From Pseudomonadota bacterium (lineage in GTDB: Bacteria > Myxococcota_A > Polyangia > Fen-1088), in NCBI GenBank assembly GCA_017881315.1, contig JADGRB010000012.1, positions 1 through 40,731 of the forward strand: DNA of 40,731 nt, given 5' to 3'. Within the stretch, counting starts at the first letter, position 1; each line of letters opens with the position of its first letter. Position numbers and translations under genes: made by a program. Below are positions 10,083 to 40,278 of the stretch, in pieces. A model generated the notes under the pieces. The model was given only the letters and a program-made list of their open reading frames with translations. It was not told where the DNA came from and did no database searches.

Positions 10083-10127
10083 GCGCAAATCGTGCACCTG
10101 CGCGGAGCGTCGATGCATTGTCTGCGC
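10083..10127. promoter_or_regulatory. paired UAS: GCGCAAATCGTGCAC (10083) and ATGCATTGTCTGCGC (10113), 30 bp apart
   Basis: Matches the dyad consensus RCGCAA-N3-TTGCGY recurring in this window. Confidence 0.6.
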
Positions 10128-10154
10128 CGCTCGCCAATTCCGGAGGACCCCCGC

Positions 10155-10622
10155 ATGCACCTCACCTCGACCGCATTTGGAGCGAACGCCGAGATCCCCA
10201 CCGCCCACACCTGTGAGGGCGCAGACCGCGCGCCGCCGCTCGCCTGGACCGACGCGCCCGCGGGAACCAAGAGCTTCGCGCTCGTCGTCGATGATCCGGA
10301 CGCGCCCGATCCAAAGGCGCCCAAGATGACCTGGGTGCACTGGGTCGTCTACGATCTGCCGTCTACGACGGACGCGCTCCCCGAAGGGGGCGCGTTGCCG
10401 GCCGGCGGCCTCGAGGGAATCAACGATTGGAAGCGAGCGGGGTGGGGAGGTCCGTGCCCACCCGTCGGTCGCCACCGTTACTTCTTCAAGCTCTACGCTC
10501 TCGACAAGGTCCTCCCCGATCTCAAGCGGCCGACCAAGGCGCAGCTCGAAAGGGAGATGGAGGGGCACATCCTCGCCAGGGCCGAGCTCGTCGGCACCTA
10601 TCAGAAGCGGAAGATGCGGTGA
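10155..10622 (+). CDS. YbhB/YbcL family Raf-kinase-inhibitor-like (PEBP) protein
   Basis: LTSTAFGANAEIPTAHTCEGADRAPPLAWTDAPAGTKSFALVVDDPDAPDP...WVHWVVYDLP. Confidence 0.92.
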   Translation: MHLTSTAFGANAEIPTAHTCEGADRAPPLAWTDAPAGTKSFALVVDDPDAPDPKAPKMTWVHWVVYDLPSTTDALPEGGALPAGGLEGINDWKRAGWGGPCPPVGRHRYFFKLYALDKVLPDLKRPTKAQLEREMEGHILARAELVGTYQKRKMR

Positions 10623-10657
10623 GTCCGGTGCGAGCGGATCCGGACGCCTCGCCCGAC

Positions 10658-10674
10658 TGGCACACGCGGTGCAA
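10658..10674 (+). promoter_or_regulatory. sigma-54 type promoter (TGGCACACGCGGTGCAA)
   Basis: TGGCAC-N6-TGCA with GG-N10-GC; upstream of the GyrI-like gene; no clear UAS pair. Confidence 0.55.
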
Positions 10675-10784
10675 CGACCCAGCATATGCCTTCCACATCC
10701 GTTGTCTCACGCTCCCGCACGACGCATCCCGCGCAGAAAGCGCACGCTCCACGCAACCCGAGCGTCACGAAACCTCCGCTCCCG

Positions 10785-11381
10785 ATGCCGAGCCAGCTCC
10801 TCGACGCCACCACGCGCGCCGACGTCGTGACGATTCCGGCCCGCAAGGTGCTCGCGATCGAAGGTGCGGGTGCGCCGGAGGGCGAATCTTTCCAGAGGGC
10901 GGTGGGCGCGCTCTACGGCGTCGCGTACACGCTCAAGTTCGCGCGCAAGAAGGCCGGTGGCTCCGAATTCAAGATCGGGCCGCTCGAAGGGCGCTGGTGG
11001 GCCACCCTCGAAGGCAGCGTCTTCGTGAAGGCCCCGCGCGACAGTTGGCGCTGGCGACTGCGCCTCGCGATGCCGGAAGACGTCGGTGAGGCCGAGATCG
11101 CCGCCGCGATAGCCGCGGCCACCCACAAGAAGGGGGGTAAGCTGGAGGGAAGCACCGAGGCGAAGACCGTGAGCCTCGAGCGCGTTCCCGCCGAGCGCGT
11201 GGGTCGAGCCCTGCACGTCGGGCCCTACGCCGAGGAAGGCCGAACGTTCGACGTCATCGACCAGGCGCTCGCCGATGCGGGCGTCAAGCCCGCATTTTCC
11301 CACCTCGAAATCTACCTGGGGGATCCCAGGCGAACGCCGCCCGCGCGCCTTCGGACCGTCCTCATGCGCGAGACGCGCTGA
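10785..11381 (+). CDS. GyrI-like small-molecule-binding domain protein
   Basis: ATTRADVVTIPARKVLAIEGAGAPEG...GPYAEEGRTFDVIDQALADAGVKPAFSHLEIYLGDPRRTPPARLRTVLMRE; in-frame upstream ATG at 10686 also possible. Confidence 0.75.
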   Translation: MPSQLLDATTRADVVTIPARKVLAIEGAGAPEGESFQRAVGALYGVAYTLKFARKKAGGSEFKIGPLEGRWWATLEGSVFVKAPRDSWRWRLRLAMPEDVGEAEIAAAIAAATHKKGGKLEGSTEAKTVSLERVPAERVGRALHVGPYAEEGRTFDVIDQALADAGVKPAFSHLEIYLGDPRRTPPARLRTVLMRETR

Positions 11382-11498
11382 GCGAAATGAGGAGTTGCTG
11401 CTGAAGAAAGGCGAAGCGATTTTTCGGTTCGGCTTGACGAAACGGTGCGCGCTCGGTCCGAAGAAGGCCTTGGACGCTGTCGTGTCAGCAGCTCAGAA

Positions 11499-11717
11499 TT
11501 AAGGAGTGGGTGGCGGCGGAGTGGGTGCGCGGGGGATAGCCATGGCGGCTGCGCTTCGCGAAACTTCGCGGCCGCGGAATCCAGCCCCCACGACGCCAAT
11601 CACCCCGGCCACGACGACGAGAGCGGCGACCAGGATGAGATCCCGCCTCCCGCGGCCCACCTTCGCGATCTTCTTGAGATCCTCTTCGACACCGCTCGAT
11701 GTCTGAATGTCGTCCAT
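11499..11717 (-). CDS. small single-TM protein of unknown function
   Basis: MDDIQTSSGVEEDLKKIAKVGRGRRDLILVAALVVVAGVIGVVGAGF..., Pro-rich C-terminus; strong sigma-54-like promoter directly upstream. Confidence 0.55.
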   Translation of the reverse strand: MDDIQTSSGVEEDLKKIAKVGRGRRDLILVAALVVVAGVIGVVGAGFRGREVSRSAAAMAIPRAPTPPPPTP

Positions 11718-11730
11718 GCGAGGCAAAACA

Positions 11731-11747
11731 AGCACGCTTTGTGCCAA
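11731..11747 (-). promoter_or_regulatory. sigma-54 type promoter (TTGGCACAAAGCGTGCT)
   Basis: TTGGCAC-N5-GTGCT, GG-N10-GC; divergent from 11900 with a shared UAS pair. Confidence 0.75.
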
Positions 11748-11821
11748 GGAACCGGCCAACGATCTTGGTGCGGAAGGAACCGAACGTGGTCTGCTGGCGG
11801 ACCGACGAACCCGCTCGAAAC

Positions 11822-11866
11822 CCGTAATGGATGCGCCCAATCGGGCCTCTCGCGCAAGAGCTGCGG
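11822..11866. promoter_or_regulatory. paired UAS: CCGTAATGGATGCGC (11822) and GCGCAAGAGCTGCGG (11852), 30 bp apart
   Basis: Dyad consensus, exact 30-bp spacing, between divergent sigma-54-like promoters. Confidence 0.7.
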
Positions 11867-11899
11867 AGAATCCTCGGCCGGTTATGAGGGGCCATCCGC

Positions 11900-11916
11900 T
11901 GGCACGACCTCTGCAG
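11900..11916 (+). promoter_or_regulatory. sigma-54 type promoter (TGGCACGACCTCTGCAG)
   Basis: TGGCACG-N4-CTGCA, nearly consensus. Confidence 0.8.
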
Positions 11917-11941
11917 TAAGAGACGCAGAAATGAGGCTCCC

Positions 11942-12301
11942 GTGAATCAATCGACGGCCAGCAGAGTGCGAATGATTCAACCTGAGATCGCCGCGGGCGT
12001 TACGCGGCTACCGCTGGCGTCGGTTCCGCCGACGCGAAGCGCAGGGATCGACCTCTTGCGCGGGATGCTGACACGGCTGGAGGACGTGACGCCAGCCGGG
12101 CAGCCCTACTTGATGGCGAAGGTTCTACCGCTGCTTCGCCGAGAGGCGCTCGATCCGACCAGGCGCTTTCGGTCCCGTGACCTGCACGTGATCACGCGGT
12201 CCTTGGACGAACTGGAACACGAGGCCTCGCGTGTGGCACCCAATCCGCTCACCTTCAGAAAGAAGGCTCAGATCTTGGTCGACGTCTTCGCCCTCGCCTG
12301 A
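11942..12301 (+). CDS. conserved-looking small protein of unknown function
   Basis: 119 aa (GTG start, or ATG at 11972), directly downstream of a near-consensus sigma-54 promoter. Confidence 0.5.
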   Translation: MNQSTASRVRMIQPEIAAGVTRLPLASVPPTRSAGIDLLRGMLTRLEDVTPAGQPYLMAKVLPLLRREALDPTRRFRSRDLHVITRSLDELEHEASRVAPNPLTFRKKAQILVDVFALA

Positions 12302-12375
12302 CATACGCCTCAACCAATGCTATCCACGCCGCTTTGAATTCGAGACGGTCACGTTACGGAGGTGGCGCGTGCTCG

Positions 12376-12816
12376 CTATCCGATGCGGGGCGCGCGGACG
12401 GCGACCACCGGGCAATGAGCGTGGCGCAATACGTGCTCGGCCACGCTGCCGAGGAGGAGACGTTTCACGCCTGTGCGGCCGTGGGTTCCCATCACGATCA
12501 GATCGGCGCCTCCGCTTCGAGCGGCATCGAGGATGATGTCGCCCACCGCGCTCGGTGCGAAGACGACCTTGGCCGACGCTGTCGCGTCATACCGGCGTGC
12601 CGCTTCGACCATGGCTCTTTCGAGCGCGGCGATCTCGTCGTCGGTTGGAACTATGAGAGCGAGGTCGGTCTCGATGGTTCCGGGCGGGATGGAGTTGATG
12701 GCGTGAACCATCTGGATCGGCCCGGTGCCTGTCGTCTTCTGCAGGTCACCCGCCCAGCGTAGCGCCTCTTCAGCCGTGGCGCTGAAATCGAAAGGTACGG
12801 TGATTGTGGGTTTCAT
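12376..12816 (-). CDS. UspA-type universal stress protein
   Basis: MKPTITVPFDFSATAEEALRWAGDLQ...ADLIVMGTHGRTGVKRLLLGSVAEHVLRHAHCPVVAVR. Confidence 0.93.
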   Translation of the reverse strand: MKPTITVPFDFSATAEEALRWAGDLQKTTGTGPIQMVHAINSIPPGTIETDLALIVPTDDEIAALERAMVEAARRYDATASAKVVFAPSAVGDIILDAARSGGADLIVMGTHGRTGVKRLLLGSVAEHVLRHAHCPVVAVRAPRIG

Positions 12817-12830
12817 GGCATCGCTTTGCA

Positions 12831-12847
12831 TTGCGAGGTTCATGCCA
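12831..12847 (-). promoter_or_regulatory. sigma-54 type promoter (TGGCATGAACCTCGCAA) for USP
   Basis: GG-N10-GC; TGGCATG-N4-TCGCA. Confidence 0.65.
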
Positions 12848-12893
12848 CGATGCCGTGAGAGACGACCCGTCAGCGCTCGGCCTGACGACTTAA

Positions 12894-12938
12894 CGGCGAA
12901 TTCTGCGCCCCGAGGCGGGCGGCGCGCAGAACTTGCGT
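12894..12938. promoter_or_regulatory. paired UAS: CGGCGAATTCTGCGC (12894) and GCGCAGAACTTGCGT (12924), 30 bp apart
   Basis: Dyad consensus with 30-bp spacing between divergent promoters. Confidence 0.65.
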
Positions 12939-12993
12939 AGGAGACTGGTGGCGGCGCTCCCGCTCTCGAGCTCGAAGAGGGTCTCCGAAGGTG

Positions 12994-13010
12994 TGGCATC
13001 GCCCATGCAA
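12994..13010 (+). promoter_or_regulatory. sigma-54 type promoter (TGGCATCGCCCATGCAA)
   Basis: TGGCATC-N4-ATGCAA, GG-N10-GC; 25 nt leader with SD ggagagg before ATG 13045. Confidence 0.7.
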
Positions 13011-13044
13011 ATGGGTTCGGCATCGATCAACCGGAGAGGACGCC

Positions 13045-13320
13045 ATGCAGACCAAACACGAAATCTCGACCACCCCAACACTCGGCGAAGCTGTCGCGGC
13101 GTCCTATGAGCTCGGCAGCGCGGTGGCGTCGGATCGCGCCACGGCCGCGAATCTGGCGGCCCGCCATCTCGAGCGCGTGCTCGGACGCGGGAGCAACGCG
13201 CGCGTTGCTATTGCGCTGGCAGACCTCGCCCGCGACCTAGCGCCGGCCCGACCGCGCGCCATACGGGCCAGGAACCCAAATATTCTGTTTGTCTCCGTAC
13301 AGCAGATCCCCGCGTGGTGA
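13045..13320 (+). CDS. small protein of unknown function
   Basis: 91 aa MQTKHEISTTPTLGEAVAASYELGSAVASDRATAANLAARHLERVLGRG...; good SD and sigma-54 promoter. Confidence 0.6.
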   Translation: MQTKHEISTTPTLGEAVAASYELGSAVASDRATAANLAARHLERVLGRGSNARVAIALADLARDLAPARPRAIRARNPNILFVSVQQIPAW

Positions 13321-13426
13321 CGGCGTCGCGTAGCGCGCTGATTGGCATCGGGATCATGTAGGGAGCCGAGCGTCTCCCAAGCCGGCGCGTGCCAATGCAG
13401 TCCCGGCTAGCGCTATTCTGTCGCTC

Positions 13427-14676: not shown

Positions 14677-14722
14677 ACGCACTCGCTGCGCGCGGGAGCT
14701 TCAATCGGCGCATCCTGTGCGC
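14677..14722. promoter_or_regulatory. paired UAS: ACGCACTCGCTGCGC (14677) and GCGCATCCTGTGCGC (14708), 31 bp apart
   Basis: Both are palindromic RCGCA-N5-TGCGC. Confidence 0.65.
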
Positions 14723-14807: not shown

Positions 14808-14824
14808 TGGCACAGCGGGTGCAG
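14808..14824 (+). promoter_or_regulatory. sigma-54 type promoter (TGGCACAGCGGGTGCAG) for the Ser/Thr kinase
   Basis: TGGCACA-N4-GTGCA, GG-N10-GC. Confidence 0.75.
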
Positions 14825-18859: not shown

Positions 18860-19099
18860 ATGACGATGAAGCGGTCTTTGCAGATGATCCTGACTATCGC
18901 GCTCTTCAGCCCACCGTTGACTGGTTATCTGATGCTTCACGACCTCTTTATTACCTCGATCGGTGGGCGGCTCCCGCCTATCGAGCGTTTCGTTTCGGCG
19001 CTGCGCGAGCCGGCGTTCGTGTTTGGGATCGGGGCGTACCTGGCCATCTGTGCGATCGCGGTGCTCGGGCTCCGCGGGCGCGGGGCCGCGCAAAGTTGA
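18860..19099 (+). CDS. small two-TM membrane protein of unknown function
   Basis: MTMKRSLQMILTIALFSPPLTGYLMLHDLFITSIGG...FVFGIGAYLAICAIAVLGLRGRG. Confidence 0.6.
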   Translation: MTMKRSLQMILTIALFSPPLTGYLMLHDLFITSIGGRLPPIERFVSALREPAFVFGIGAYLAICAIAVLGLRGRGAAQS

Positions 19100-19132
19100 C
19101 GCTCCCGGGGGCCGAGCGCGCAAATCTTGCGA
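19088..19132. promoter_or_regulatory. paired UAS: GCGCAAAGTTGACGC (19088) and GCGCAAATCTTGCGA (19118), 30 bp apart
   Basis: Dyad consensus; exact 30-bp spacing. Confidence 0.65.
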
Positions 19133-19174: not shown

Positions 19175-19191
19175 GGGCATGTGCCTTGCTG
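19175..19191 (+). promoter_or_regulatory. sigma-54 type promoter (GGGCATGTGCCTTGCTG)
   Basis: GG-N10-GC; GGCATG-N4-CTTGCT. Confidence 0.65.
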
Positions 19192-20869: not shown

Positions 20870-22237
20870 CTATGACGCGCGCCGGTCCAGCAGCGGTTCG
20901 GCCATGACGTCCAGCGCGTGCTGAGCGCTGCGGCGCTGGTGCTCCCTGCCGATCAGCAGGACGAACCCGATCCAGATGGCCGCGAGGCCGACGTTGATCG
21001 CGGCGAACGTGCTCGTCGACCAGCCAAGCCGCGTACCGACGAAGACCATGAGCCCCGACATGATCGCGCCCATCCTCACCGCGATCGTGTCGACCGCGGT
21101 CTTGCCGACGAACTTCTCGACCCGCGAGCTGACGAGGAAGAGAGCGTGCCGGGTGGTGTCCTGCAGCGAATACTGGAGCGCGTTCTCCCCGATCTTCACC
21201 ACGCGCATTACCGCGAGCGCGGGAAAGAAGGCCGCGGCTCCGTAGGCCGCCAGCGCGAAGCTGGGCATGACCATCAGCGCGCGTCGCACCCCGACCAGCT
21301 TGAGGATGCGCGCCACCGCGAACAGCTGCAGCCCGACGCCGATCGAGTTGTACCAGACGAAGTAGTCGGCCTTGAAAGTGCCCACGAACGTGCGCGCGCT
21401 CGCGCCGTGCGCGGCTGCGTCCTTGGCGGCGGCCAGCAACGTGCGGTCGAGCAGGTATTCGCCGGAGCTGTTCACCCAGTTGAGGAAGATCGCCATTCCC
21501 GCGATGAACCACAGGTACTTGTCTCGCGACAGCAGGCGCCACGCGCTCTGCTCGGCGAGCGGCTCGTCGGGGTGAGCCTCATCGCGGGTCACCTTGACCG
21601 ATTGCGCGCGCCGCTCGATGACCCCGATCAGGGAGACGCATACCAGCAGGATGGCCACCGCGGTCCCCATCAAGACGTGCGGGCCAAACGGCACCAGCGC
21701 TCGGGCGAAGAGCCCGCCGACCACCGCGCCGATCGAGCTGCCCGCGCCGATGATGGGGAACAGCCGCTTCCCCTGCTCTTCGTTGTAGATGTCGGCGGCG
21801 AGGCCCCAGAACTGGGCCACCACGGTGTAGCTGAAGACGCCGACCCACAAGAAGAACGGCAATCCGATCGGAAGATCGAGCTTCGCGAGGACGGTGAACA
21901 CGGCGAGGTTCGCGATGAAGAACAGGAATACGATCGCGAGCAGCTTCATCCGCCCGACCCGGCGCGCCAGCTCGCCGTAGAGGTGCACCACGCCGACCAT
22001 CAGCACGGCCTGCCCCGCGCGCGCATAGAGCTTCACCTCCGCGCCGCCCTGCAGGAGGATCAGCGGCTCGCGGACGGTCTTGAGCAGGTAGTAGGCGGTG
22101 AGGAGCAGGAACGCCGAAAGCGCCATCAAACCCGCGGTCACCGCCTCATCCGGGTGCACCTTGCTGAAGGGCCGAAATACCGTCGCGAGGGCGCGCCGCA
22201 ATCGGATCGTGATGATCATAGGATTGATCGGCACCAC
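20870..22237 (-). CDS. Npt1/Npt2 (Tlc-like) nucleotide translocase / MFS-like homolog
   Basis: LLTAYYLLKTVREPLILLQGGAEVKLYARAGQAVLM...; 12-TM-like; paralog of 27107..28474. Confidence 0.7.
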   Translation of the reverse strand: MVPINPMIITIRLRRALATVFRPFSKVHPDEAVTAGLMALSAFLLLTAYYLLKTVREPLILLQGGAEVKLYARAGQAVLMVGVVHLYGELARRVGRMKLLAIVFLFFIANLAVFTVLAKLDLPIGLPFFLWVGVFSYTVVAQFWGLAADIYNEEQGKRLFPIIGAGSSIGAVVGGLFARALVPFGPHVLMGTAVAILLVCVSLIGVIERRAQSVKVTRDEAHPDEPLAEQSAWRLLSRDKYLWFIAGMAIFLNWVNSSGEYLLDRTLLAAAKDAAAHGASARTFVGTFKADYFVWYNSIGVGLQLFAVARILKLVGVRRALMVMPSFALAAYGAAAFFPALAVMRVVKIGENALQYSLQDTTRHALFLVSSRVEKFVGKTAVDTIAVRMGAIMSGLMVFVGTRLGWSTSTFAAINVGLAAIWIGFVLLIGREHQRRSAQHALDVMAEPLLDRRAS

Positions 22238-22252: not shown

Positions 22253-22741
22253 TCAGCCTGCGGCTGCAGCTGCGCAAGCACCACAGCGATCGGTCTCCGG
22301 GACGGCGCGCAGTCGCTCTTCCTCGATTTTGGAGCGGCACGCCGCGCAATATCCGTAGCTCCCGCGCTCGATCCGGTCGAGCGCCCCCTGAATCCGGCCC
22401 AGCGCGATCCGCTCGGCCTCACTCAGGCTCTCCAGCACTGTCGCTGCCGTTTTGGCGGCGGCGACGTCCTCCCAATCCGGCTCGCGCTCGGCGAGCAGCT
22501 CCTGCTCGTCGGCGAGCACCCTCTGCCGGCGCTGGAGCAGGGAGAATCGGCGGCCCAGGAGTCGACGGCGAAAGGTCTCGAGCGTTTCGGCGAGCATGTC
22601 TTCGAGCAGAGCAGGATCGATGCCACGCGCCGCAGAGCCTCGGTGCCGGACAGACGGCGCAGATGCTGCCGGGTGGGACGCAAACGCCTGCAGTTTCTGC
22701 GCGTTTCCGGCGATGCGAAGGCCGGCGTCGATGGTCGACAA
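22253..22741 (-). CDS. TraR/DksA-type C4 zinc-finger protein
   Basis: GRIQGALDRIERGSYGYCAACRSKIEEERLRAVPETDRCGAC. Confidence 0.85.
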   Translation of the reverse strand: MSTIDAGLRIAGNAQKLQAFASHPAASAPSVRHRGSAARGIDPALLEDMLAETLETFRRRLLGRRFSLLQRRQRVLADEQELLAEREPDWEDVAAAKTAATVLESLSEAERIALGRIQGALDRIERGSYGYCAACRSKIEEERLRAVPETDRCGACAAAAAG

Positions 22742-22753: not shown

Positions 22754-23374
22754 CTAGGAGCGGAGGCAGACGATGTCGAAGGTGAGCGTCACCTCGTCCT
22801 GCACGGTGAGGGTTCCGCCGACCAATGAGGCCGGCGTGATCCCGAAGTCGGTCTGCCGGAGCCGGAGGCTTCCTTTCGCGCGCACCATGTCGGCCCGAAG
22901 GAAGACCTGGGCCGGCACCGTCACTGGCTTGCGACGACCGTGCAGGAAAAGCTCCCCGGAGATCTGGACCTCGAAGAGTCTGTCTCCGAGCGGTTCCGCG
23001 CTGATGCGCGTGCTCCGAAACAGAATCTCACCGTACCTGTCGGCGCCCAGCGCTCGCCGAATCCACGCTTCGATCTGTCGTCGGTCCTTGTCGGCGACGC
23101 CGGCATCCGTCAGACGGAGAGAGTCGGCGCGGACCTTCATTTCGAGCGCGGCGGTGTCGGGAAAGTTGGGGGTGAAGGTCATCGAACCGGTGATTCCCCG
23201 CGCTTCGATGCGATGATCGTGTGCGAAGGTCGAGGTTGCGCCGTCGGTCCGGGTCTCGACGATGAGACGGCTCTGGCGGGCGTCGATTCTGTAGGCCACC
23301 CGGGTCGAAGGGGGCGCCTCCGTCGCGGCGAGGCACGCCATGGCGGCGACGAGGAACGGATGGTTTGAAATCAT
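22754..23374 (-). CDS. YceI family protein (paralog 1)
   Basis: YRIDARQSRLIVETRTDGATSTFAHDHRIEARGITGSMTF...GSLRLRQTDFGITPASLVGGTLTVQDEVTLTFDI. Confidence 0.88.
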   Translation of the reverse strand: MISNHPFLVAAMACLAATEAPPSTRVAYRIDARQSRLIVETRTDGATSTFAHDHRIEARGITGSMTFTPNFPDTAALEMKVRADSLRLTDAGVADKDRRQIEAWIRRALGADRYGEILFRSTRISAEPLGDRLFEVQISGELFLHGRRKPVTVPAQVFLRADMVRAKGSLRLRQTDFGITPASLVGGTLTVQDEVTLTFDIVCLRS

Positions 23375-23979
23375 CCTCGCGCTAGGTGCTGTTGGCCCTC
23401 GGGGCCGGCCGCGAGCGATTCCTTGAGCGACGGATAACGCTCCACCAGCGAGAGGTGGTAGGCGATCATTCGGAATTGGACCCGGAGAGTCAGGGTCAGG
23501 AAGTCGGCCAGCGCGGCCGGCATCCGCTCGGTCGCGAGGACGAACGCCGCGGCGACCAGCCACGCGAGCGCGGCCACCAGCGACAGGACCCACACCAGCA
23601 ATAGGGCGGGCAAGCTGGTGAGGAGCCTGAGCAGCGACGAGCCCACCGTCGGGGTCCCTTCGATCTCGATCTGGAGATCGACGTGGCTACCTTCGCTCGT
23701 CGGCAGGTCGTTGGTCAGCAGCCAGAGATAGCCGTACGCGACGGCGAACCAGCGGAGAACACGCACGACTTTGGGCGCGTTGTCCGCGAGATAACGCGGG
23801 CCGCCCTTCTGGCTGACCATGGCCGCCACCATGGCGGGGAGCGCCAGATAGAGGAACCAGTAGATCGACGAGCAGCCGAGCGTTCCCAGCGCCAGCAGCA
23901 GGACCAACCGGATCACGACGTGGATCCGCGGAATCCGGGCCGCGCGTTCGATGTTGAGCTGAACCGGATGACGGGACAT
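23371..23979 (-). CDS. DUF4389 domain membrane protein
   Basis: MSRHPVQLNIERAARIPRIHVVIRLVLL...VLRWFAVAYGYLWLLTNDLP...RVQFRMIAYHLSLVERYPSL. Confidence 0.75.
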   Translation of the reverse strand: MSRHPVQLNIERAARIPRIHVVIRLVLLLALGTLGCSSIYWFLYLALPAMVAAMVSQKGGPRYLADNAPKVVRVLRWFAVAYGYLWLLTNDLPTSEGSHVDLQIEIEGTPTVGSSLLRLLTSLPALLLVWVLSLVAALAWLVAAAFVLATERMPAALADFLTLTLRVQFRMIAYHLSLVERYPSLKESLAAGPEGQQHLARG

Positions 23980-23991: not shown

Positions 23992-24008
23992 TGCACGACC
24001 CGCGCCAG
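23992..24008 (-). promoter_or_regulatory. sigma-54 type promoter (CTGGCGCGGGTCGTGCA) for the DUF4389-YceI-DksA-Npt operon
   Basis: TGGCGCG-N4-GTGCA, GG-N10-GC. Confidence 0.7.
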
Positions 24009-24094: not shown

Positions 24095-24139
24095 GCGCAG
24101 ATCTTGCGGTAGTTCGGAGTAGGCCCGCAGGGTTTTCGC
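24095..24139. promoter_or_regulatory. paired UAS: GCGCAGATCTTGCGG (24095) and CCGCAGGGTTTTCGC (24125), 30 bp apart
   Basis: Dyad consensus, 30-bp spacing between divergent promoters. Confidence 0.65.
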
Positions 24140-24180: not shown

Positions 24181-24197
24181 TGGCACGGGGCTCGCAA
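24181..24197 (+). promoter_or_regulatory. sigma-54 type promoter (TGGCACGGGGCTCGCAA)
   Basis: Perfect -24 TGGCACG; -12 TCGCA; GG-N10-GC. Confidence 0.8.
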
Positions 24198-24220: not shown

Positions 24221-24925
24221 ATGAACAGTCTCCCGAATATGCCAAGGGGCCCCAGACGATCGCACCCCAGTTGGCCCGCCAAGTGGATCCTGTGTCTGGC
24301 CTCCAGCCTCGCCTGGGTCGGACCGGCTCGCGACGCCGTGCCGAAGGAATCGGCCCCGCCCGACACCTCGCGCCTGCACTATCGCATCGATGCCGCAAAG
24401 AGCAGATTCAGTATCGAGACCGAGACCAGCGGGCTCTCCGCGATGTTCGGGCACGATCACAAGATCGCGGTGCGCGATTTCGGAGGGGTGGTGAGCTTCA
24501 ATCCGGGCGCGCCCGAAACGGCCTCGCTTGAGCTGACGGTCCAGACGGACTCGTTGCGCCTTCTCGACGCGGAGGTGAGACCCGCAGACCGCCGGGACAT
24601 CGAGGCGACGATTCTGAATGTCTTGAAGGCGTCGGTGTATAGCAAGATCGTTTTCTCGAGCACCGCCGTCACCGCCGAGACCATCGGCGACGGGATCTTC
24701 GACGTGCGGGTTGCCGGGGAGCTGACCATGCGCGGCGTCCGTCGCGCCGTGACGATTCCCACCCAGGTGATCGTTCGACCGGATCTCTTGCGCGCCACCG
24801 GCAGCCTGAAGCTCCGCCAGACGGACTACAAGATCGAGCCCTTCTCTTTTGCGGGTGGGACGGTCAAGGTGAAGGATGCCGTGACGCTGAGCTTCGACCT
24901 CATCGCGACCCGATTCAGAAGCTGA
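24221..24925 (+). CDS. YceI family protein (paralog 2)
   Basis: YRIDAAKSRFSIETETSGLSAMFGHDHKIAVRDFGGVVSF...LKLRQTDYKIEPFSFAGGTVKVKDAVTLSFDL. Confidence 0.88.
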   Translation: MNSLPNMPRGPRRSHPSWPAKWILCLASSLAWVGPARDAVPKESAPPDTSRLHYRIDAAKSRFSIETETSGLSAMFGHDHKIAVRDFGGVVSFNPGAPETASLELTVQTDSLRLLDAEVRPADRRDIEATILNVLKASVYSKIVFSSTAVTAETIGDGIFDVRVAGELTMRGVRRAVTIPTQVIVRPDLLRATGSLKLRQTDYKIEPFSFAGGTVKVKDAVTLSFDLIATRFRS

Positions 24926-26951: not shown

Positions 26952-26968
26952 TGCAGCTCTGGTGCCAA
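26952..26968 (-). promoter_or_regulatory. sigma-54 type promoter (TTGGCACCAGAGCTGCA) for YceI3-HlyD
   Basis: TTGGCACC-N4-CTGCA, GG-N10-GC. Confidence 0.75.
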
Positions 26969-26998: not shown

Positions 26999-27043
26999 AC
27001 GTAATTCCTGCGCTCGAGAGGGAGCTCCGCGCAAATCCTGCGA
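26999..27043. promoter_or_regulatory. paired UAS: ACGTAATTCCTGCGC (26999) and GCGCAAATCCTGCGA (27029), 30 bp apart
   Basis: Dyad consensus, 30-bp spacing between divergent promoters. Confidence 0.7.
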
Positions 27044-27074: not shown

Positions 27075-27091
27075 TTGGTTCGTTCCTTGCT
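27075..27091 (+). promoter_or_regulatory. sigma-54 type promoter (TTGGTTCGTTCCTTGCT)
   Basis: TTGGTTC-N4-CTTGCT, GG-N10-GC. Confidence 0.7.
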
Positions 27092-27106: not shown

Positions 27107-28474
27107 ATGTCCAACGAGAAAGCCACTTTACTCAGAAGGCTGGCGCGCGGAATCGAGAAGGTCGTCGGCTCCGACGTGCATGAGGCCGAATGGCGTCTGG
27201 TCCTGGTCCTCTTCGCCAATCTCTTCCTCCTGCTGGCCGCCTATTACATCCTGAAGGTCATCCGCGAGCCCCTGATCCTGCTCGGCGGAGGCGCCGTGCG
27301 CCGGAGCTACGCGCGCGGGACCCAGGCCGGCCTGTTGGTCTTGCTCATACCGATCTACAGCTGGTTGGCAAACCGGATCGAGCCGGCGCACTTGGTCAAG
27401 TGGATCATGGTGGTCTTCATCGCCAGCCTGGCGGTGTTCTTTTCGATCGGGCGGCTCGGCGTTCCGATCGGGTTCGCGTTCTTTGTCTGGCTCGGCATCT
27501 TCAGCACCCTGTCCATCGCTCAGTTCTGGTCGCTCGCCAACGACATCATGACGGAGGGCGAGGGGAAGCGACTCTTCCCGCTGGTGGCCGTCGGCGGATC
27601 GGCCGGCGGAATCCTGGGCGCCCAGTTCGTGGCGCACGCCCTGGACCGGTTCAGCCCAAATCAAATGATGCTGGTCGCGGCCGGCCTGCTGGTGGTCTGC
27701 CTGGCCCTCACGCACGCCAGCCACAACGCCGGCATCGGTCACCGGATCCGGGTTCCCGATGGACCGCCCCAGGCGCGAGACCTGCGCAGCGGGTTCACGC
27801 TGGTCTTACAGGATCGATACCTGCTGCTCATCGGCCTGTCGGTCATTGCCGTGAACCTGATCACGGCCACCGGCGATTTCCTGTTGGCGCAGATGGTGAG
27901 CGCGAGGGCGCACGCCTTGGCGCCCGCTCTGCGCGGCCACTACATCGGGGCCTTCTACGGCAACCTCCAGACCTGGGTGACGGTGCTGAGCGCGGTCGTG
28001 CAAACGGTGCTGGTCGGGCGCGTCTTCAAGGCGGTAGGCGTCGGGGGCGCGCTCTTCTTCATGCCGCTGGTCGTCGTCACGGGCTACGGTGCGCTCGTCC
28101 TGGCGCCGGTGCTGGCGACGATGGTCGTGGTCAAGGTGGTCGAGGGCACGACCGACTACTCGCTTCAGAACACCCTCCAGCAGGCGCTCTTCCTGCCCAC
28201 CTCGCGCGACGCGAAGTACAAGGCCAAATCCGCGATCGACACCGTCTCCAAACGACTCGGCGATCTCGGTTCTACGGCGCTCATCTTCTTCGGGACCTTG
28301 GCCGGCTTCAGCAAGCTGGGCTTCGCCGCGGCCAACGTCGTGGCCGGCCTCCTCTGGATCTGGATGTGCATCTACGTACGGCGTCGCCAGCTCGCGCTGG
28401 TTGCCGCCGCGACGGACGCTGAGCGGCCAACCGAAGCGGATTCGGGCGCTCCGGCCCTTTCGTCGGTGGTTTGA
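27107..28474 (+). CDS. Npt1/Npt2 (Tlc-like) nucleotide translocase / MFS-like homolog, second copy
   Basis: LAAYYILKVIREPLILLGGGAVRRSYARGTQAGLLVLLIPIYSWL...; aligns end to end with 20870..22237. Confidence 0.7.
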   Translation: MSNEKATLLRRLARGIEKVVGSDVHEAEWRLVLVLFANLFLLLAAYYILKVIREPLILLGGGAVRRSYARGTQAGLLVLLIPIYSWLANRIEPAHLVKWIMVVFIASLAVFFSIGRLGVPIGFAFFVWLGIFSTLSIAQFWSLANDIMTEGEGKRLFPLVAVGGSAGGILGAQFVAHALDRFSPNQMMLVAAGLLVVCLALTHASHNAGIGHRIRVPDGPPQARDLRSGFTLVLQDRYLLLIGLSVIAVNLITATGDFLLAQMVSARAHALAPALRGHYIGAFYGNLQTWVTVLSAVVQTVLVGRVFKAVGVGGALFFMPLVVVTGYGALVLAPVLATMVVVKVVEGTTDYSLQNTLQQALFLPTSRDAKYKAKSAIDTVSKRLGDLGSTALIFFGTLAGFSKLGFAAANVVAGLLWIWMCIYVRRRQLALVAAATDAERPTEADSGAPALSSVV

Positions 28475-28495: not shown

Positions 28496-28541
28496 GCGCA
28501 AGGTTTGCGCCGGCTCCAATTGTCGGTGTCGATTCTTGCGT
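28496..28541. promoter_or_regulatory. paired UAS: perfect palindrome GCGCAAGGTTTGCGC (28496) and half-site TGTCGATTCTTGCGT (28527), 31 bp apart
   Basis: First site is a perfect 6-3-6 dyad. Confidence 0.6.
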
Positions 28542-28582: not shown

Positions 28583-28599
28583 GGGCACGGCTCTTGCGA
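28583..28599 (+). promoter_or_regulatory. sigma-54 type promoter (GGGCACGGCTCTTGCGA)
   Basis: GGGCACG-N4-CTTGC, GG-N10-GC. Confidence 0.75.
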
Positions 28600-28644: not shown

Positions 28645-30363
28645 ATGAGGCACATCGGATTCGGCAAGGCTGGAATCGCAGGAACGGCGCTGTTGGTGCT
28701 CGCGGGGGCCGGCCTGGCGTTCGCCGGGCCGGGAATGATCCGCTGGTTCGTCGATCGTCCCATCGCCTGGAACGAACACGACGACGCCAACGTGCCCGCT
28801 CTGCCGGAAGCCAATCACTTGCAAGAGGTTCACGCCACCCTGACGATTCGGGACAACCTCGCCAACGAGGCGGATCGGATTCTGGCTGCCGAGGGACCTC
28901 TGCCGGCTGAGGACGTGAACGCGGTCGATGAGGTTCCCTGCTCCACCTGGTATTGCGCGCGCAATCACCTCCACCCCATGAGCCTCGAGGAGATTGCGAC
29001 AGGCCCGCCCGGGAGCGCGCCCACACCGCCGTTCACCATCGTCAAGGGGAAGGACGAGGGCGCGGCTTCCGGCTTCCAGGTGGTGGACGCCAAGGGCAAG
29101 AAGTTCATGCTCAAGCTCGATCCGCGCGGGCACCTGGGCCTGCAATCGGGCGCCGAGATGATCGGCTATCGGTTGTTTCATGCCGCCGGATACAACGTCC
29201 CGGGCGCCTTTCTGGTCGACATCGACCGCGCGGACTTGAGGCTCGACCCGCACGCGACCTTCAAGCTCCTCGACATCGAAAAGCGCCCGCTGACCGAGGC
29301 GCGGGTCGCGACTCAGCTCTCAGGCGTGGCCCAATTGCCCGGCGGGCGCCTCCGAACGGTCGAGGTCCCCTGGCTCCGCGGCCAGGTTCTTGGCTCGTTC
29401 GACATGCTGGGTGTGCGGCCGGGGGATCCAAACGATCGTATTCCCCACGAGCGCCGTCGGTCGTTGCGCGCGAGCTGGGTGTTGTTCGCCTGGCTCTCGG
29501 TGCTCGATGCCGGTTCGATCAACACGCTCGACACCTACGTCGAAGAAGGTGGACGGCACTTCATCCGACATTACTTCTTTGATTTCGGCTGTTCCTTCGG
29601 ATCCGCGACCGCGTACGCGCAAGGGCCGCAGCAAGACGGCGAGTTTCTGATCGAGGTTGGTCGCTCCCTGGCCGCGCTATTTTCGTTCGGCCTCTATCAG
29701 CGGCCGTTTCAGGCGCGGGAAGAGCGCCAGACCTGGCAGACTCTCGACGCCGAGCATCCGGCCGTCGGCTACTTCCCGGCCGAGGACTTCGATCCCGACA
29801 GCTACCGCGGCAATCGACGGGTTCCCGCCCACATGCGGATCACCGCAGGCGACGCCTATTGGGGCGCCAAGGTCGTGACCGCATTTACCGACGGACAGGT
29901 TCACGCGGTGGTGGCCACCGCACGGTATTCGGAGTCCGACGGCGCCTACGTGGAACATGCCTTGCGGGTGAGGCGGGATATCCTGGGCCGACGTTACCTT
30001 CGCGCGGTGGCGGCGATCGAAAGCCCGGGCATGTCGCCCGACGGCTCGCAGGTCTGTTTCGACGATCTGGCGATCGATCGCGGATACGCGGGGGTGCTCG
30101 AGGCTCGGTATCTGGTCGAGGTCAGCGACGGTCACGGCGTTCGGGTGGCCGGTTACCAGCAGGCCGCTGCGGGCTCACATGCGTGCGTTCCCATCGGTGG
30201 TGTCGGGGCGGGTACCGGATACCGGGTGGTCAGTATCCGAGAACAGCTCGCGGGGGGAGCCGGCCACCCCGACACCCCGATCGGCAAGCCCGCACGAATT
30301 CACCTGCGCTGGCGGGCCGGGGAACGTCGATTCGTGGTCGTCGGTCTCGAGCGTGACGAATGA
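28645..30363 (+). CDS. exported protein with atypical kinase-like fold signature
   Basis: N-terminal signal anchor; KKFMLKLDP (Lys), VLDAGSINTLD (D-x4-N, catalytic-loop-like), HYFFDFG (DFG-like) in correct order. Confidence 0.6.
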   Translation: MRHIGFGKAGIAGTALLVLAGAGLAFAGPGMIRWFVDRPIAWNEHDDANVPALPEANHLQEVHATLTIRDNLANEADRILAAEGPLPAEDVNAVDEVPCSTWYCARNHLHPMSLEEIATGPPGSAPTPPFTIVKGKDEGAASGFQVVDAKGKKFMLKLDPRGHLGLQSGAEMIGYRLFHAAGYNVPGAFLVDIDRADLRLDPHATFKLLDIEKRPLTEARVATQLSGVAQLPGGRLRTVEVPWLRGQVLGSFDMLGVRPGDPNDRIPHERRRSLRASWVLFAWLSVLDAGSINTLDTYVEEGGRHFIRHYFFDFGCSFGSATAYAQGPQQDGEFLIEVGRSLAALFSFGLYQRPFQAREERQTWQTLDAEHPAVGYFPAEDFDPDSYRGNRRVPAHMRITAGDAYWGAKVVTAFTDGQVHAVVATARYSESDGAYVEHALRVRRDILGRRYLRAVAAIESPGMSPDGSQVCFDDLAIDRGYAGVLEARYLVEVSDGHGVRVAGYQQAAAGSHACVPIGGVGAGTGYRVVSIREQLAGGAGHPDTPIGKPARIHLRWRAGERRFVVVGLERDE

Positions 30364-31793
30364 GGTCCCGATCTCTGCGGGCGATGCTCTTGGCCGGCCT
30401 GTGCGCTCTGCCCGAGATCGTGCACGCCGAGCCGACTCCCGGAGACGCGACGGCTTCGGTCCAGGTCGCAGCCGATCCGCCGCCCTGCACGGGCCCGGCC
30501 TCCGATCGCGCGCCCGATCCCCGCTGCGATGAGACCTTGGACGGGCGCGTGACGGCTGGCCCGTCGGCGGATCTGGCCGTGCAGCGGGCGGCGCTGGCGG
30601 TTCCCAGGCTCGTTGTACGCGGACTCTTCTGGCCCGTCGTCGAGACCACCGACGTGGTCGAGCACAACCACCTCATTGACTGGATGCACGTGCTCCTCAC
30701 GACCGACGACGGGCTCGTCGGCGTGCGGCCGGTGATCAACTACTCGACCAGTTTCCTTCCCTCGGGTGGAGCGCGTTTCTTCTATCGGCGCCTACCCGGT
30801 CCCGGCAGCGAGGTCGCCGGGCTGTTCGAGACGGCCGGCCCGGCCGTCATGCTCGGCCGGCTGGAGCTGCGTAGCCCCACCCGCATAGGATTGGTCCTGT
30901 CGGGGATTTTGGATCGGCGCGACGATCGTCTGTTTGCCGGAAATGGGCCGAACAGCATGGCGGACTTGCTCGCGGCGGGACAAGGACTCGCGCGTTATGG
31001 CTCCGACAACTTCGCGGCCCAGCTGCGCTGGTCCCGACCTTTGCCTGGCAAGTTGATCGCCCACGCGCAGGGCGATCTGCAATGGCGGGACTACACCGCC
31101 GCGGACGTGCACAGTGGCTCGTCGGTAGCCGAGCTCTATGGCCTGCCGGCCGACACCTGCGCGGCGCAAGGGATGGCGGCGCCGTGTGTCGACGAGCGCC
31201 AGCTGCCGGGTTTCGAGCGCGGCATGCGAATCGTCCACGAGGGGGGCGGGCTCGGGATCGGGCTTCGTGACTTGGGACGCGAAGGGGCGGGCGCCAGCCT
31301 GATCGTCGACGGAACCTTCGCGGAGGGCTTCGCCGGAGATCCGAGCCGCCACCTCACGCTCTCGGCGGAGACGGTTCTCGCCGTCGGGACTTCCAATCGT
31401 GCGTTCCTCTTGCGGGGCCGCGCCGCCATGGTGGAACGCCTCGGCGACGCGCCGGTGCCGTTCGAGGAGCTGATTTCGCCTTCGGGCGCGGCCGGCATGC
31501 GGGGATTTCCTGAGGGACGGTTCCGCGGGGAGAGCGGCCTCGTCGGTACCGCGGAGTACCGCTGGTACGTCGCGTCCTACCTGGACGCGTCGGTATTCAC
31601 GGACCTGGGGACCGTCGCGGGGCGGCAGTTCGCGGGGATTGCCTGGGACCGTTGGTTCCCCACCTTCGGGATCGGTTTCCGCCGGTTCATGACGGAGGGC
31701 CCGTACTGGGAGGCAAAGGTTCTGGATGGTATCCAGCTCGCCTACGCGCCCGACAACGGGTTCCGGATCCTGCTCTCGATGGCCGGCTTCTGA
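30360..31793 (+). CDS. Omp85/BamA-type surface-antigen outer-membrane barrel protein
   Basis: Signal peptide; GAAGMRGFPEGRFRGESGLVGTAEYRWYV (RGF motif region), terminal aromatic ...LLSMAGF; 4-nt overlap with the upstream gene. Confidence 0.75.
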   Translation: MRSRSLRAMLLAGLCALPEIVHAEPTPGDATASVQVAADPPPCTGPASDRAPDPRCDETLDGRVTAGPSADLAVQRAALAVPRLVVRGLFWPVVETTDVVEHNHLIDWMHVLLTTDDGLVGVRPVINYSTSFLPSGGARFFYRRLPGPGSEVAGLFETAGPAVMLGRLELRSPTRIGLVLSGILDRRDDRLFAGNGPNSMADLLAAGQGLARYGSDNFAAQLRWSRPLPGKLIAHAQGDLQWRDYTAADVHSGSSVAELYGLPADTCAAQGMAAPCVDERQLPGFERGMRIVHEGGGLGIGLRDLGREGAGASLIVDGTFAEGFAGDPSRHLTLSAETVLAVGTSNRAFLLRGRAAMVERLGDAPVPFEELISPSGAAGMRGFPEGRFRGESGLVGTAEYRWYVASYLDASVFTDLGTVAGRQFAGIAWDRWFPTFGIGFRRFMTEGPYWEAKVLDGIQLAYAPDNGFRILLSMAGF

Positions 31794-33180: not shown

Positions 33181-33225
33181 ACGCAAGACTTGCGTTGATT
33201 GCGCCAAGCAGCGCATTCGTTGCGC
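33181..33225. promoter_or_regulatory. paired UAS: perfect palindrome ACGCAAGACTTGCGT (33181) and GCGCATTCGTTGCGC (33211), 30 bp apart
   Basis: Two strong dyads with exact 30-bp spacing between divergent genes. Confidence 0.7.
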
Positions 33226-37696: not shown

Positions 37697-37697
37697 C

Positions 37698-38459: not shown

Positions 38460-38463
38460 AACC

Positions 38464-39165
38464 ATGACCACACGAAGACACATCAACGCGCAGTTCGACG
38501 TGGAGCTCCGCTCGCTCAAGGATCAGATCTCGGCGATGGGGAGCCTGGTCGATCGACACGTCGGCGAGGCGGTCGCCGCCCTGATCGAGCGCGACCGAGA
38601 ACGGGCCAGGCGGGTGATCGAAGCCGATCGGGCCGTCAACCAGAGCGAGCTCGCCATCGACGAACAGTGCATACGGGTGCTGGCCTTGCAACAGCCAGCG
38701 GCATCGGATCTCCGCTTCATCGCCGCCGCTTTGAAGATGGTTACCGACCTCGAACGAATCGGAGATCTGGCCGTGAACATGGCCGAGCGCGTTCCGGCGC
38801 TCTGCGAAGAGCCCGCTCTGCGGGCGGTGGAGGAGCTTCCGCAGATGGCCGCCGCCGCTCAGACGATGCTCCGCGACGTGCTGGAAGCATTCGTGAATGG
38901 CGATCCGGTCAAGGCCGAGGCCGTGCTGGCCGCTGATCCGGCGATCGATGCCTGGTCCGTCCGTATCTTCGACGAAGTCCAGTCGGTCATGGGTCGCGAC
39001 CCGAGCTCGGTGCCGCGGGGTCTCGCCACGATCTTCTTCGCCAAACACATCGAGCGGATGGCCGACCACACCACCAACGTGGCGGAGATGGTGATCTATC
39101 TGGTCCGAGGACAAGACGTCAGACACGCCAAAGCGAGCTCGTCGCCCCAGCAGTCGCCGACCTGA
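38464..39165 (+). CDS. phoU: phosphate signaling protein PhoU
   Basis: FDVELRSLKDQISAMGSLVDRHVGEAVAAL...LRFIAAALKMVTDLERIGDLAVNMAE...KHIERMADHTTNVAEMVIYLVRG. Confidence 0.95.
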   Translation: MTTRRHINAQFDVELRSLKDQISAMGSLVDRHVGEAVAALIERDRERARRVIEADRAVNQSELAIDEQCIRVLALQQPAASDLRFIAAALKMVTDLERIGDLAVNMAERVPALCEEPALRAVEELPQMAAAAQTMLRDVLEAFVNGDPVKAEAVLAADPAIDAWSVRIFDEVQSVMGRDPSSVPRGLATIFFAKHIERMADHTTNVAEMVIYLVRGQDVRHAKASSSPQQSPT

Positions 39166-39186
39166 GCCACGTCCGATCGCTCACGG

Positions 39187-40119
39187 CTATTTGTAGGGGG
39201 GCATCGAGGTGGTGCCCAGCGCCTGAACCCATCTTCGGATGTTTGCGGCGGCCTCCTCGCTGAGAAATCCCAGGGGGGGCATCATGAGCCCGATCTCGGC
39301 GGCGTTGGTCGGCTTGTAGGCGATGTTGTGGTACAGGTTTGCCGCGGAGTCTTGGTAGCCCGACATGGGCGCCGAATTGACGAAATCCCATCCGAACGTC
39401 GCGCCCACCTCGCGGGCGCCATGGCAGAACTGGCAGCTCTGACGGAAGAGCGCCAGGCCCGCTCGAACCGAGGCGTCACCGCCCACGTCGAACTGGGCAT
39501 AGTAGGCGGCGGCCGCGACCAGCTCGACGCCCACCAGAGTATCGGCGTGAGCCCAGGGCGAGAATCCGGGTTCAGTCGTGGAGGAGACTTCTGGGTGCCA
39601 GCGGTCCGCCACCACGATCTTGTTGCCGGAGAACTGGATCGGCCGCCGATCGACGGGTGAATCCTTCTTCACGATGTCGGGGAACGTCCCCGGCGCAGCC
39701 GTCGCCCGGGACCCCGCCCTCAGCGCCGTTGCGATGAAAGGATCGAGGCGGCTCATCGCGACGCTGTCGCGGAACGGGACTGGGATAGCCATCCCGTTCG
39801 CAAAATGGAGGATCGCGAGATCGACCGATGCCTCCGGCTTGAAGCGACGCAAGAGGTCCCGCAACGTGATGCCCCGGTACTGCCCCTTGCGATCGTATTG
39901 GACGTCGAAACGATCGACGGTCACGAGCCGCAGCCGATCGAGGTTCACCTGCCGCGATCGCTCGTGGGGTGCGCCTTGCTCTCCCGGCAGGCTCTTGCCC
40001 CGCACCCAGATCTCGATCACGGCGCCGGTTGCCGGACTGGCGGTCGCTCGATGCCATGGCACGCCGAGGACCAAGGCGACGAGCCCGAGCCCGAGCCCGA
40101 TCCCGCGTAGGCCGTTCAT
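39187..40119 (-). CDS. exported c-type cytochrome with N-terminal oxidoreductase-like domain
   Basis: Signal peptide; one CQFCH heme motif with downstream MPPLGF; N-terminal region YRGITLRDLLRRF resembles molybdopterin-domain proteins. Confidence 0.75.
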   Translation of the reverse strand: MNGLRGIGLGLGLVALVLGVPWHRATASPATGAVIEIWVRGKSLPGEQGAPHERSRQVNLDRLRLVTVDRFDVQYDRKGQYRGITLRDLLRRFKPEASVDLAILHFANGMAIPVPFRDSVAMSRLDPFIATALRAGSRATAAPGTFPDIVKKDSPVDRRPIQFSGNKIVVADRWHPEVSSTTEPGFSPWAHADTLVGVELVAAAAYYAQFDVGGDASVRAGLALFRQSCQFCHGAREVGATFGWDFVNSAPMSGYQDSAANLYHNIAYKPTNAAEIGLMMPPLGFLSEEAAANIRRWVQALGTTSMPPYK

Positions 40120-40166
40120 TGCTCCCGGCCGGTTTCTTTGGCGGTTGTCCTCACGCAGCTAGCTGA

Positions 40167-40183
40167 TGCAAGCGTGCCGCCAG
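40167..40183 (-). promoter_or_regulatory. sigma-54 type promoter (CTGGCGGCACGCTTGCA) for the cytochrome gene
   Basis: TGGCGGC-N4-TTGCA, GG-N10-GC; 37 nt leader with SD. Confidence 0.7.
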
Positions 40184-40233
40184 CCGTTGCTTGGGCCGCG
40201 TGACACCCGCGCTGAGATCTCGGGGTCCCGCCC

Positions 40234-40278
40234 CGGTAAATCGTGCGCGGCAGGTGAAGAAAGACGCACCATCTGCGT
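40234..40278. promoter_or_regulatory. paired UAS: CGGTAAATCGTGCGC (40234) and ACGCACCATCTGCGT (40264), 30 bp apart
   Basis: Dyad consensus, exact 30-bp spacing between divergent genes. Confidence 0.65.

Follow-up and report, generated by a model that had tools for sequence, protein, structure and literature searches.

Along the stretch of DNA considered here (the window, 40,731 nucleotides of an uncultured myxobacterial genome), a pair of short inverted repeats recurs in front of one gene after another, raising the question of which regulator reads these sites, from which promoters, and in answer to which signal. Judging from the sequence, each dyad pair is very probably an enhancer for an NmpR-type response regulator of the NtrC family acting on sigma54 promoters.

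Paired dyads in the window

The initial annotation listed ten pairs of 15-bp dyads, and all 20 dyads are found exactly where it placed them, spaced 30 or 31 bp from start to start. The core that it proposed, CGCA-N5-TGCG, is upheld as the conserved part in 94 sites. Of its longer form, RCGCAA-N3-TTGCGY, the inner CGCA/TGCG stands, while the outer R/Y and the A/T at the sixth position are weak in the same sites, the consensus being (G)CGCA(A)-N3-(T)TGCG(C). The ten pairs are real, but the list was incomplete, an eleventh pair (22657/22688, 31 bp apart) having been overlooked.

The comparison with shuffled sequence, suggested along with the list, was made with a symmetric dyad model, a pair being defined by a spacing of 30/31 bp and a summed score of ≥18. 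The window held 10 pairs, whereas 300 dinucleotide-preserving shuffles averaged 0.067 and never exceeded 2; other spacings of 20–44 bp gave 0 or 1 pair each. The genome scan, also suggested there, pointed the same way: with ≤1 mismatch, 9 pairs versus 1 in the reversed-pattern control were found at 30 bp and 4 versus 1 at 31 bp, and the exact two-dyad core had 4 matches genome-wide, all at 30 or 31 bp, versus 0 in the control. The gap between the dyads of a pair amounts to 15–16 bp.

Many copies of fixed size, clustered on four contigs, could also represent a dispersed repeat or mobile element with no regulatory role. This reading was rejected because the copies have unrelated spacers and flanks; it is also at odds with the siting of the pairs, which lie in promoter regions and keep phased distances to sigma54 elements, and with their reappearance ahead of orthologues of the regulators in other genera, so it is extremely unlikely.

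The pairs (predicted NmpR-type enhancers), their predicted targets and the adjoining sigma54 elements are as follows.

10083..10127, pair 1, 30 bp, with a sigma54 element on the left; putative promoter of pyruvate:ferredoxin oxidoreductase genes 9322-9933, 8147-9376 and 7128-8150 (minus strand)
9992..10007, minus strand, sigma54 element CGGCACATCCCTTGCT, 76 bp from pair 1
11822..11866, pair 2, 30 bp, divergent sigma54 elements; plus-strand target, 119-aa ORF 11942-12301
11900..11915, plus strand, sigma54 element TGGCACGACCTCTGCA, 34 bp from pair 2
11731..11746, minus strand, sigma54 element TGGCACAAAGCGTGCT, 76 bp from pair 2
12894..12938, pair 3, 30 bp, divergent; targets, universal stress protein 12376-12816 (minus) and 91-aa ORF 13045-13320 (plus)
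12994..13009, plus strand, sigma54 element TGGCATCGCCCATGCA, 56 bp from pair 3
12832..12847, minus strand, sigma54 element TGGCATGAACCTCGCA, 47 bp from pair 3
14677..14722, pair 4, 31 bp, in front of a Ser/Thr protein kinase gene (plus, end at 16075)
14808..14823, plus strand, sigma54 element TGGCACAGCGGGTGCA, 86 bp from pair 4
19088..19132, pair 5, 30 bp, in front of an AI-2E family transporter gene (plus, end at 20331)
19175..19190, plus strand, sigma54 element GGGCATGTGCCTTGCT, 43 bp from pair 5
22657..22702, eleventh pair, 31 bp, in front of a DksA-like gene (22253.., minus)
22610..22625, minus strand, sigma54 element TGGCATCGATCCTGCT, 32 bp from the eleventh pair
24095..24139, pair 6, 30 bp, divergent; targets, YceI-like 24221-24925 (plus) and DUF4389 protein 23371-23979 (minus)
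24181..24196, plus strand, sigma54 element TGGCACGGGGCTCGCA, 42 bp from pair 6
23992..24007, minus strand, sigma54 element TGGCGCGGGTCGTGCA, 88 bp from pair 6
26999..27043, pair 7, 30 bp, divergent; targets, YceI-like 26267.. (minus) and TLC-type ATP/ADP transporter 27107-28474 (plus)
26952..26967, minus strand, sigma54 element TGGCACCAGAGCTGCA, 32 bp from pair 7
27076..27091, plus strand, sigma54 element TGGTTCGTTCCTTGCT, 33 bp from pair 7
28496..28541, pair 8, 31 bp, upstream of ORF 28645-30363 and an Omp85-like gene 30360-31793 (plus)
28583..28598, plus strand, sigma54 element GGGCACGGCTCTTGCG, 42 bp from pair 8
33181..33225, pair 9, 30 bp, with the dyads that match best in the window, flanked by an HlyD-like gene (minus) and a phosphoesterase gene (plus)
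40234..40278, pair 10, 30 bp, flanked by a cytochrome c-like gene 39187-40119 (minus) and the start of an nmpU-like gene (plus)
40167..40182, minus strand, sigma54 element TGGCGGCACGCTTGCA, 52 bp from pair 10
40397..40731, plus strand, 5' portion of an NmpU/AfGcHK-like gene for a protoglobin sensor histidine kinase; the gene is cut at the contig end and continues on G000:C133

Some pairs overlap the 5' extension of mechanically called ORFs, the true starts of which likely lie downstream of the promoters.

Sigma54 elements and proposed enhancer geometry

Sigma54 -24/-12 elements adjoin nine of the ten listed window pairs, often on both sides; near pair 9 (33181), the best match of the window, a convincing element was searched for and none was found. 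Across the pairs assessed, an element pointing away from the pair lies within ≤110 bp in 25 of 27 cases versus 7.2% of random positions, and elements on both sides, i.e., divergent promoters, occur at 9 of 27 pairs versus 0.5%. An independent set from relatives gave 22 of 28 pairs (versus 7.2%) and, for both sides, 7 of 28 (versus 0.2%). Over 63 pair–promoter distances, helical phasing was pronounced (Rayleigh p = 9e-9, with the period preset at 10.5 bp), the distances grouping at about 31, 42, 52, 75 and 87 bp, and the phasing was seen again in relatives. RpoN is encoded in the genome. The better-matching dyad is usually the promoter-distal one (19 versus 6, p = 0.015).

Because sigma54 elements adjoin the pairs, the regulator is taken to be an NtrC-type AAA+ activator and not a generic dimeric regulator. 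The initial annotation had read the pairs as sites bound cooperatively by two dimers of one regulator, a reading in line with tandem operators of a one-component dimeric repressor or activator at ordinary sigma70 promoters. Its idea of a single dimeric regulator serving many promoters holds, but the sigma54 enhancers and the NtrC-type AAA+ nature of the protein were overlooked. Cooperative tandem dyads three turns apart are, as is generally known, common for one-component regulators; against this, two independent data sets show a strong, helically phased coupling of sigma54 elements to the pairs, and in Myxococcus xanthus this site has been proven to act as a sigma54 enhancer. The generic tandem-operator reading, now very unlikely, was dropped on account of the sigma54 elements tied to the pairs.

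In enteric bacteria, the NtrC enhancer of glnA has two sites for dimers, set about three helical turns apart, and serves sigma54 RNA polymerase. The pairs described here share this architecture, whereas the glnA enhancer differs in its site sequence, responds to a nitrogen signal and is not a many-copy island element. By the proposed mechanism, two regulator dimers would bind one face of the DNA about three helical turns apart, as the initial annotation had supposed and the spacing supports. The bound dimers would seed an oligomer, the ATPase of which would activate the sigma54-holding RNA polymerase at a -24/-12 promoter situated a whole number of helical turns from the pair, on one side or both.

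Candidate regulators, oxygen sensors and relatives

The genome encodes about 34 bEBPs; of the 30 bEBP loci examined, only two carry a pair at their own gene, namely the NmpR-like paralogues on contigs C40 and C78, which are 86% identical. The regulator was said to act in trans, in keeping with the presence of these DNA-binding protein genes on other contigs; the pathway is nonetheless not absent from the window, as the NmpU-like protoglobin sensor kinase gene starts at 40397 and runs into contig C133 via an exact 99-bp overlap. On C40, the NmpR-like gene adjoins NmpU-like and NmpS-like kinase genes (439-1803, 1800-3188 and 3200-4642; nmpR with a protoglobin kinase and a receiver-HisKA kinase). 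The kinases match the architectures of NmpU (protoglobin-HisKA-HATPase) and NmpS (receiver-HisKA-HATPase), and the best PDB match for the globin of the C40 NmpU-like protein is AfGcHK (5ohe, E = 2e-41). The regulator consists of a receiver, an AAA+ sigma54-interaction domain (PF00158, 247.9 bits) and a Fis-type HTH, and matches NtrC1-type structures over its full length (PDB 4l4u, residues 21-465); its scores with the named equivalogs AtoC, NtrC and ZraR were all under the cut-off. On C133, a 154-aa single-receiver protein follows the second nmpU, and a double-receiver (NmpT-type) protein was not seen.

Myxococcus xanthus NmpR binds two GCGCA-N5-TGCGC sites with a preferred spacing of 14–15 bp; its sites adjoin sigma54 promoters of oxygen-utilisation genes, and its targets include USP, CBS, P-type ATPase and hemerythrin (PMC11841059). 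From synteny, architecture and the identical site, the two regulators are best explained as NmpR counterparts, and the pairs at both paralogue genes suggest that nmpR would be autoregulated through the same sites. By extension from the M. xanthus work, a drop in oxygen would silence the protoglobin kinase, NmpS would then phosphorylate NmpR, and phosphorylated NmpR would switch the regulon on.

A different sigma54 activator, from among the ~32 other bEBPs, might instead use the pairs as its enhancers, with the NmpR-like paralogues as mere targets. The number of bEBPs leaves room for this, the DNA-binding assignment is itself inferential, and in genome G039 a perfect pair (C74:3102-3144) lies beside a different bEBP. 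Such a regulator is nevertheless quite unlikely, given that the motif and spacing equal those measured for M. xanthus NmpR, that only the two NmpR-like genes carry pairs among the 30 bEBP loci examined, and that upstream conservation tracks protoglobin-linked orthologues. A Desulfovibrio paper on bEBP motifs was also considered as a match and set aside, the CGCA/TTGCG motif being absent from its text.

Conservation, another check proposed at the outset, bore out the regulatory reading: a pair lies upstream in 10 of 17 nmpR orthologues linked to a protoglobin kinase versus 1 of 12 unlinked ones (Fisher p = 0.008), with no detectable pair just upstream in the other 7 of 17. In relatives, the spacing histogram peaks at 30, and 26 of 32 pairs fall at 29–31. 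Within the family, six genomes with the linked system averaged 5.3 matches versus 1.0 in twelve without it (p = 3.5e-4). The same-genus genome G001 has no orthologue, no protoglobin and no convincing pair; genus g6 of the family, handled as a separate group, has orthologues with neither a protoglobin kinase nor an upstream pair. Among the matches listed, the close named ones to the regulator come from Polyangiaceae ACE_MYX3 (67%), where a pair with a spacing of 28/30 lies just upstream of the regulator, and from a Myxococcales MAG (59%), where no pair was found in the DNA examined. The class-wide pattern count is a weak test because high-GC genomes of the class carry a high background (98 versus 58 in the control).

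The gene island and known oxygen-linked systems

Counted from patterns with ≤2 mismatches plus scored scans of a set of contigs, the whole predicted enhancer set comprises about 28 members, 24 of which lie within 104 kb on four contigs. In the comparison with other contigs, those four, namely C356 (the window), C40, C78 and C133, had 23 pairs, as opposed to 2 on 257 kb elsewhere. A 37-bp match near the contig ends of C133 and C78 is only suggestive of their joining. The gene island with most of the enhancers looks fitted for survival without oxygen: the predicted regulon includes pyruvate:ferredoxin oxidoreductase, pyruvate phosphate dikinase, hemerythrins, universal stress proteins and CBS proteins, along with YceI, the ATP/ADP transporter, cytochromes and a sigma factor.

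The kind of system is already known; what is new is its size, gene content, duplicated regulators and strict geometry. In common with M. xanthus NmpRSTU (PMC11841059, PMC6211767) are the GCGCA-N5-TGCGC dyads paired at ~15 bp, the use of sigma54 promoters, an nmpR operon that regulates itself (predicted here), the protoglobin kinase NmpU, the receiver-kinase NmpS, and USP, CBS and hemerythrin protein targets. In M. xanthus, in contrast, the known promoters number 7 and the genes 23, and their loci are scattered. The clustered set here features two NmpR and two NmpU paralogues and at least 9 pairs of divergent promoters, and its predicted targets include genes of pyruvate and acyl-CoA metabolism. 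The proximal site is essential in M. xanthus (mxan_4236), whereas the better dyad here is mostly distal. AfGcHK of Anaeromyxobacter sp. Fw109-5 is a globin-coupled oxygen-sensor kinase, a protoglobin sensor kinase as here; its target genes are given as unknown (PMC11841059), whereas here a regulon can be read from the sequence.

Low-oxygen systems with universal stress proteins also include the Burkholderia lxa locus and the Mycobacterium DosR regulon (PMC11841059). Both resemble the island in being large USP-rich gene sets tied to low oxygen, but their regulators and promoters are different, and the likeness is one of function only.

A more general view, for which belief and doubt are about evenly balanced, is that of a large oxygen-response island, in a lineage of the phylum Myxococcota, built on strict enhancer rules. 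In it, one two-dimer NmpR platform would serve a single sigma54 promoter or a divergent pair of them, always placed at whole helical turns, and the ~28 enhancers would be shared out among sensors and activators that have been duplicated. If true, no NmpR-type regulon known so far would be as large, and the island would be a separate answer to the task that DosR and lxa handle elsewhere. The NmpR oxygen circuit, with 7 promoters known in M. xanthus, probably controls a much larger island in other myxobacteria. From sequence alone, the analysis gives the ~28 enhancers of an uncultured myxobacterium a candidate regulator, a class of promoter and a probable signal, and places several genes with no assigned function in a probable low-oxygen survival programme. 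It also yields a quantitative, directly testable rule on enhancer–promoter distance and divergent use.

Dyad pairs and their counterpart in Myxococcus xanthus

The initial annotation of the window listed ten pairs of CGCA-N5-TGCG dyads with starts 30 or 31 bp apart and regarded them as a repeated regulatory unit; all ten coordinates (10/10) proved correct. Counted by a symmetric dyad score in the window and the shuffles alike, the ten pairs at these spacings stand against a mean of 0.067 and a maximum of 2 in 300 dinucleotide shuffles, and other spacings yield 0–1 pair each. A joint scan with sigma54 elements revealed an eleventh unit (22657–22702); it precedes a gene for a DksA-like protein, and a -24/-12 element lies at a distance of 32 bp. 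The same scan of the reversed window sequence returned zero units.

The M. xanthus response regulator NmpR binds two GCGCA-N5-TGCGC sites, with a preferred spacing of 14–15 bp, by sigma54 promoters, as documented by gel-shift and reporter assays; its regulon comprises 23 genes at 7 promoters, including genes for universal stress proteins (USPs), CBS proteins, P-type ATPase/cbb3 oxidase, HemN, and hemerythrin (McAllister et al. 2025, PMC11841059). The protoglobin kinase NmpU is active with oxygen, and its activity holds the receiver-kinase NmpS, and hence NmpR, off (PMC6211767). Since the two systems agree in site, spacing, sigma factor, kinase set, and types of target, the predicted pair system of the source genome (G000) is, judging from its sequence, a new, much larger instance of this kind.

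Predicted regulators and sigma54 promoters

The source genome harbors about 34 NtrC-type sigma54 activators (bEBPs), and the pair was found at only two of the 30 loci examined, those of the paralogues on contigs C40 and C78. The paralogues are 86% identical, with identical DNA-recognition helices, and each lies 3′ of a USP gene preceded by the pair. Among the matches listed, the closest named records of the regulator come from a member of the Polyangiaceae (67%) and from a Myxococcales MAG (59%), which places the source organism almost certainly within the Myxococcota. The C40 regulator neighbors a receiver-PAS-HisKA-HATPase kinase and a protoglobin-HisKA-HATPase kinase, the globin domain of which matches AfGcHK (PDB 5ohe, E = 2e-41). 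A second protoglobin kinase gene starts at 40397 of the window and runs into contig C133, where a single-receiver protein gene follows.

The RpoN gene is present in the source genome. The window contains 32 sigma54-type elements where 11.9 would be expected, and such elements adjoin 9/10 of the listed pairs; the search of the flanks of the pair at 33181 gave no clear sigma54 promoter. An outward element (score of at least 12.5, 20–110 bp from the pair) accompanies 25/27 pairs of the genome vs. 7.2% of positions drawn at random from the same DNA, and elements on both sides were recorded for 9/27 vs. 0.5%. At the same threshold, the loci of four relatives gave 22/28 vs. 7.2% and, for both-sided elements, 7/28 vs. 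0.2%. Distances between pair and element (n = 63) group around 31, 42, 52, 75, and 87 bp; a Rayleigh test with the period preset to 10.5 bp gives p = 9e-9, and the best-fitting period is 11.2 bp. Most candidate start codons lie 12–60 bases downstream of the -12 element. In 30 one-sided units, the better-matching dyad is promoter-distal in 19 and proximal in 6, with 5 ties (p = 0.015), whereas the proximal site is essential at mxan_4236 of M. xanthus.

Probable genomic island and its gene content

In the assembly (5.47 Mb, 541 contigs, 91% complete; the window is contig C356), a genome-wide pattern scan allowing at most one mismatch gave 9 matches at 30 bp vs. 1 in the control and 4 vs. 1 at 31 bp. 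Four contigs, C356, C40, C78, and C133 (104 kb, 1.9% of the assembly), carry 23 scored pairs, or 24 with the eleventh window unit, as compared to 2 pairs in 257 kb of other contigs; C73, C221, C461, and C443 bear one further good unit each. C133 is the next contig after the window, overlapping it exactly by 99 bp (40633–40731 = C133:1–99), and the break falls within the second protoglobin kinase gene. In the relative G004, one 58-kb contig bears counterparts of genes located on each of the four, which makes a single island likely. A 37-bp match between the last 43 bp of C133 and the end of C78 suggests that C133 may continue into C78 reversed. In another relative, G003, a 12-kb stretch surrounding nmpR contains all five 30-bp matches, although the contig measures 1.8 Mb.

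Genes beside the pairs
Window: pyruvate:ferredoxin oxidoreductase, USPs, Ser/Thr kinase, AI-2E transporter, YceI proteins, DUF4389, TLC-type ATP/ADP transporter, Omp85-like protein, cytochrome c, DksA-like protein
C40: ADP-forming acyl-CoA synthetase, GAF kinase, hemerythrin, possibly pyruvate kinase
C78: CBS protein, hemerythrin-YceI fusion
C133: RpoD-like sigma factor (2511–3710), 126-aa protein then diguanylate cyclase (9002–9841), cytochrome c′, triple USP, pyruvate phosphate dikinase

From this gene content and the M. xanthus system, we infer a role of the predicted regulon in low-oxygen energy saving. At the RpoD-like gene, the enhancer pair is accompanied by a sigma54 element at a distance of 46 bp; this arrangement may allow a sigma54-to-sigma70 cascade when oxygen is low. 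The diguanylate cyclase gene, 3′ of a pair and in a row with the 126-aa gene, suggests a link from oxygen to cyclic-di-GMP. At 28645–31793 of the window, genes for an uncharacterised 572-aa protein and the Omp85-like protein follow one another; their products show 72% and 69% identity to homologues near nmpU in G004 (C398). TLC-type ATP/ADP transporters are known chiefly from intracellular bacteria and from plastids; the window contains two genes for transporters like these (20870–22237 and 27107–28474), one adjoining an enhancer pair.

Conservation in related genomes

In relatives, a pair occurs at most 260 bp upstream in 10/17 protoglobin-kinase-linked orthologues vs. 1/12 unlinked homologues (p = 0.008), and most pair-bearing linked orthologues display a sigma54 element 30–31, 42, or 51–53 bp past the pair on the gene side. 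Within the family, pattern matches per genome average 5.3 with the linked system (n = 6) vs. 1.0 without it (n = 12; p = 3.5e-4). In the same-genus genome G001, neither an orthologue nor a protoglobin nor a convincing pair was found. Genus g6 (G007, G011, G013–G016) possesses NmpR-like bEBPs (58–63% identity) without a protoglobin kinase or upstream pairs, representing either a rewired or a separate group. In G039, which is devoid of a protoglobin kinase, a perfect pair (C74:3102–3144) adjoins a different bEBP, and a different sensor possibly feeds the same type of site there.
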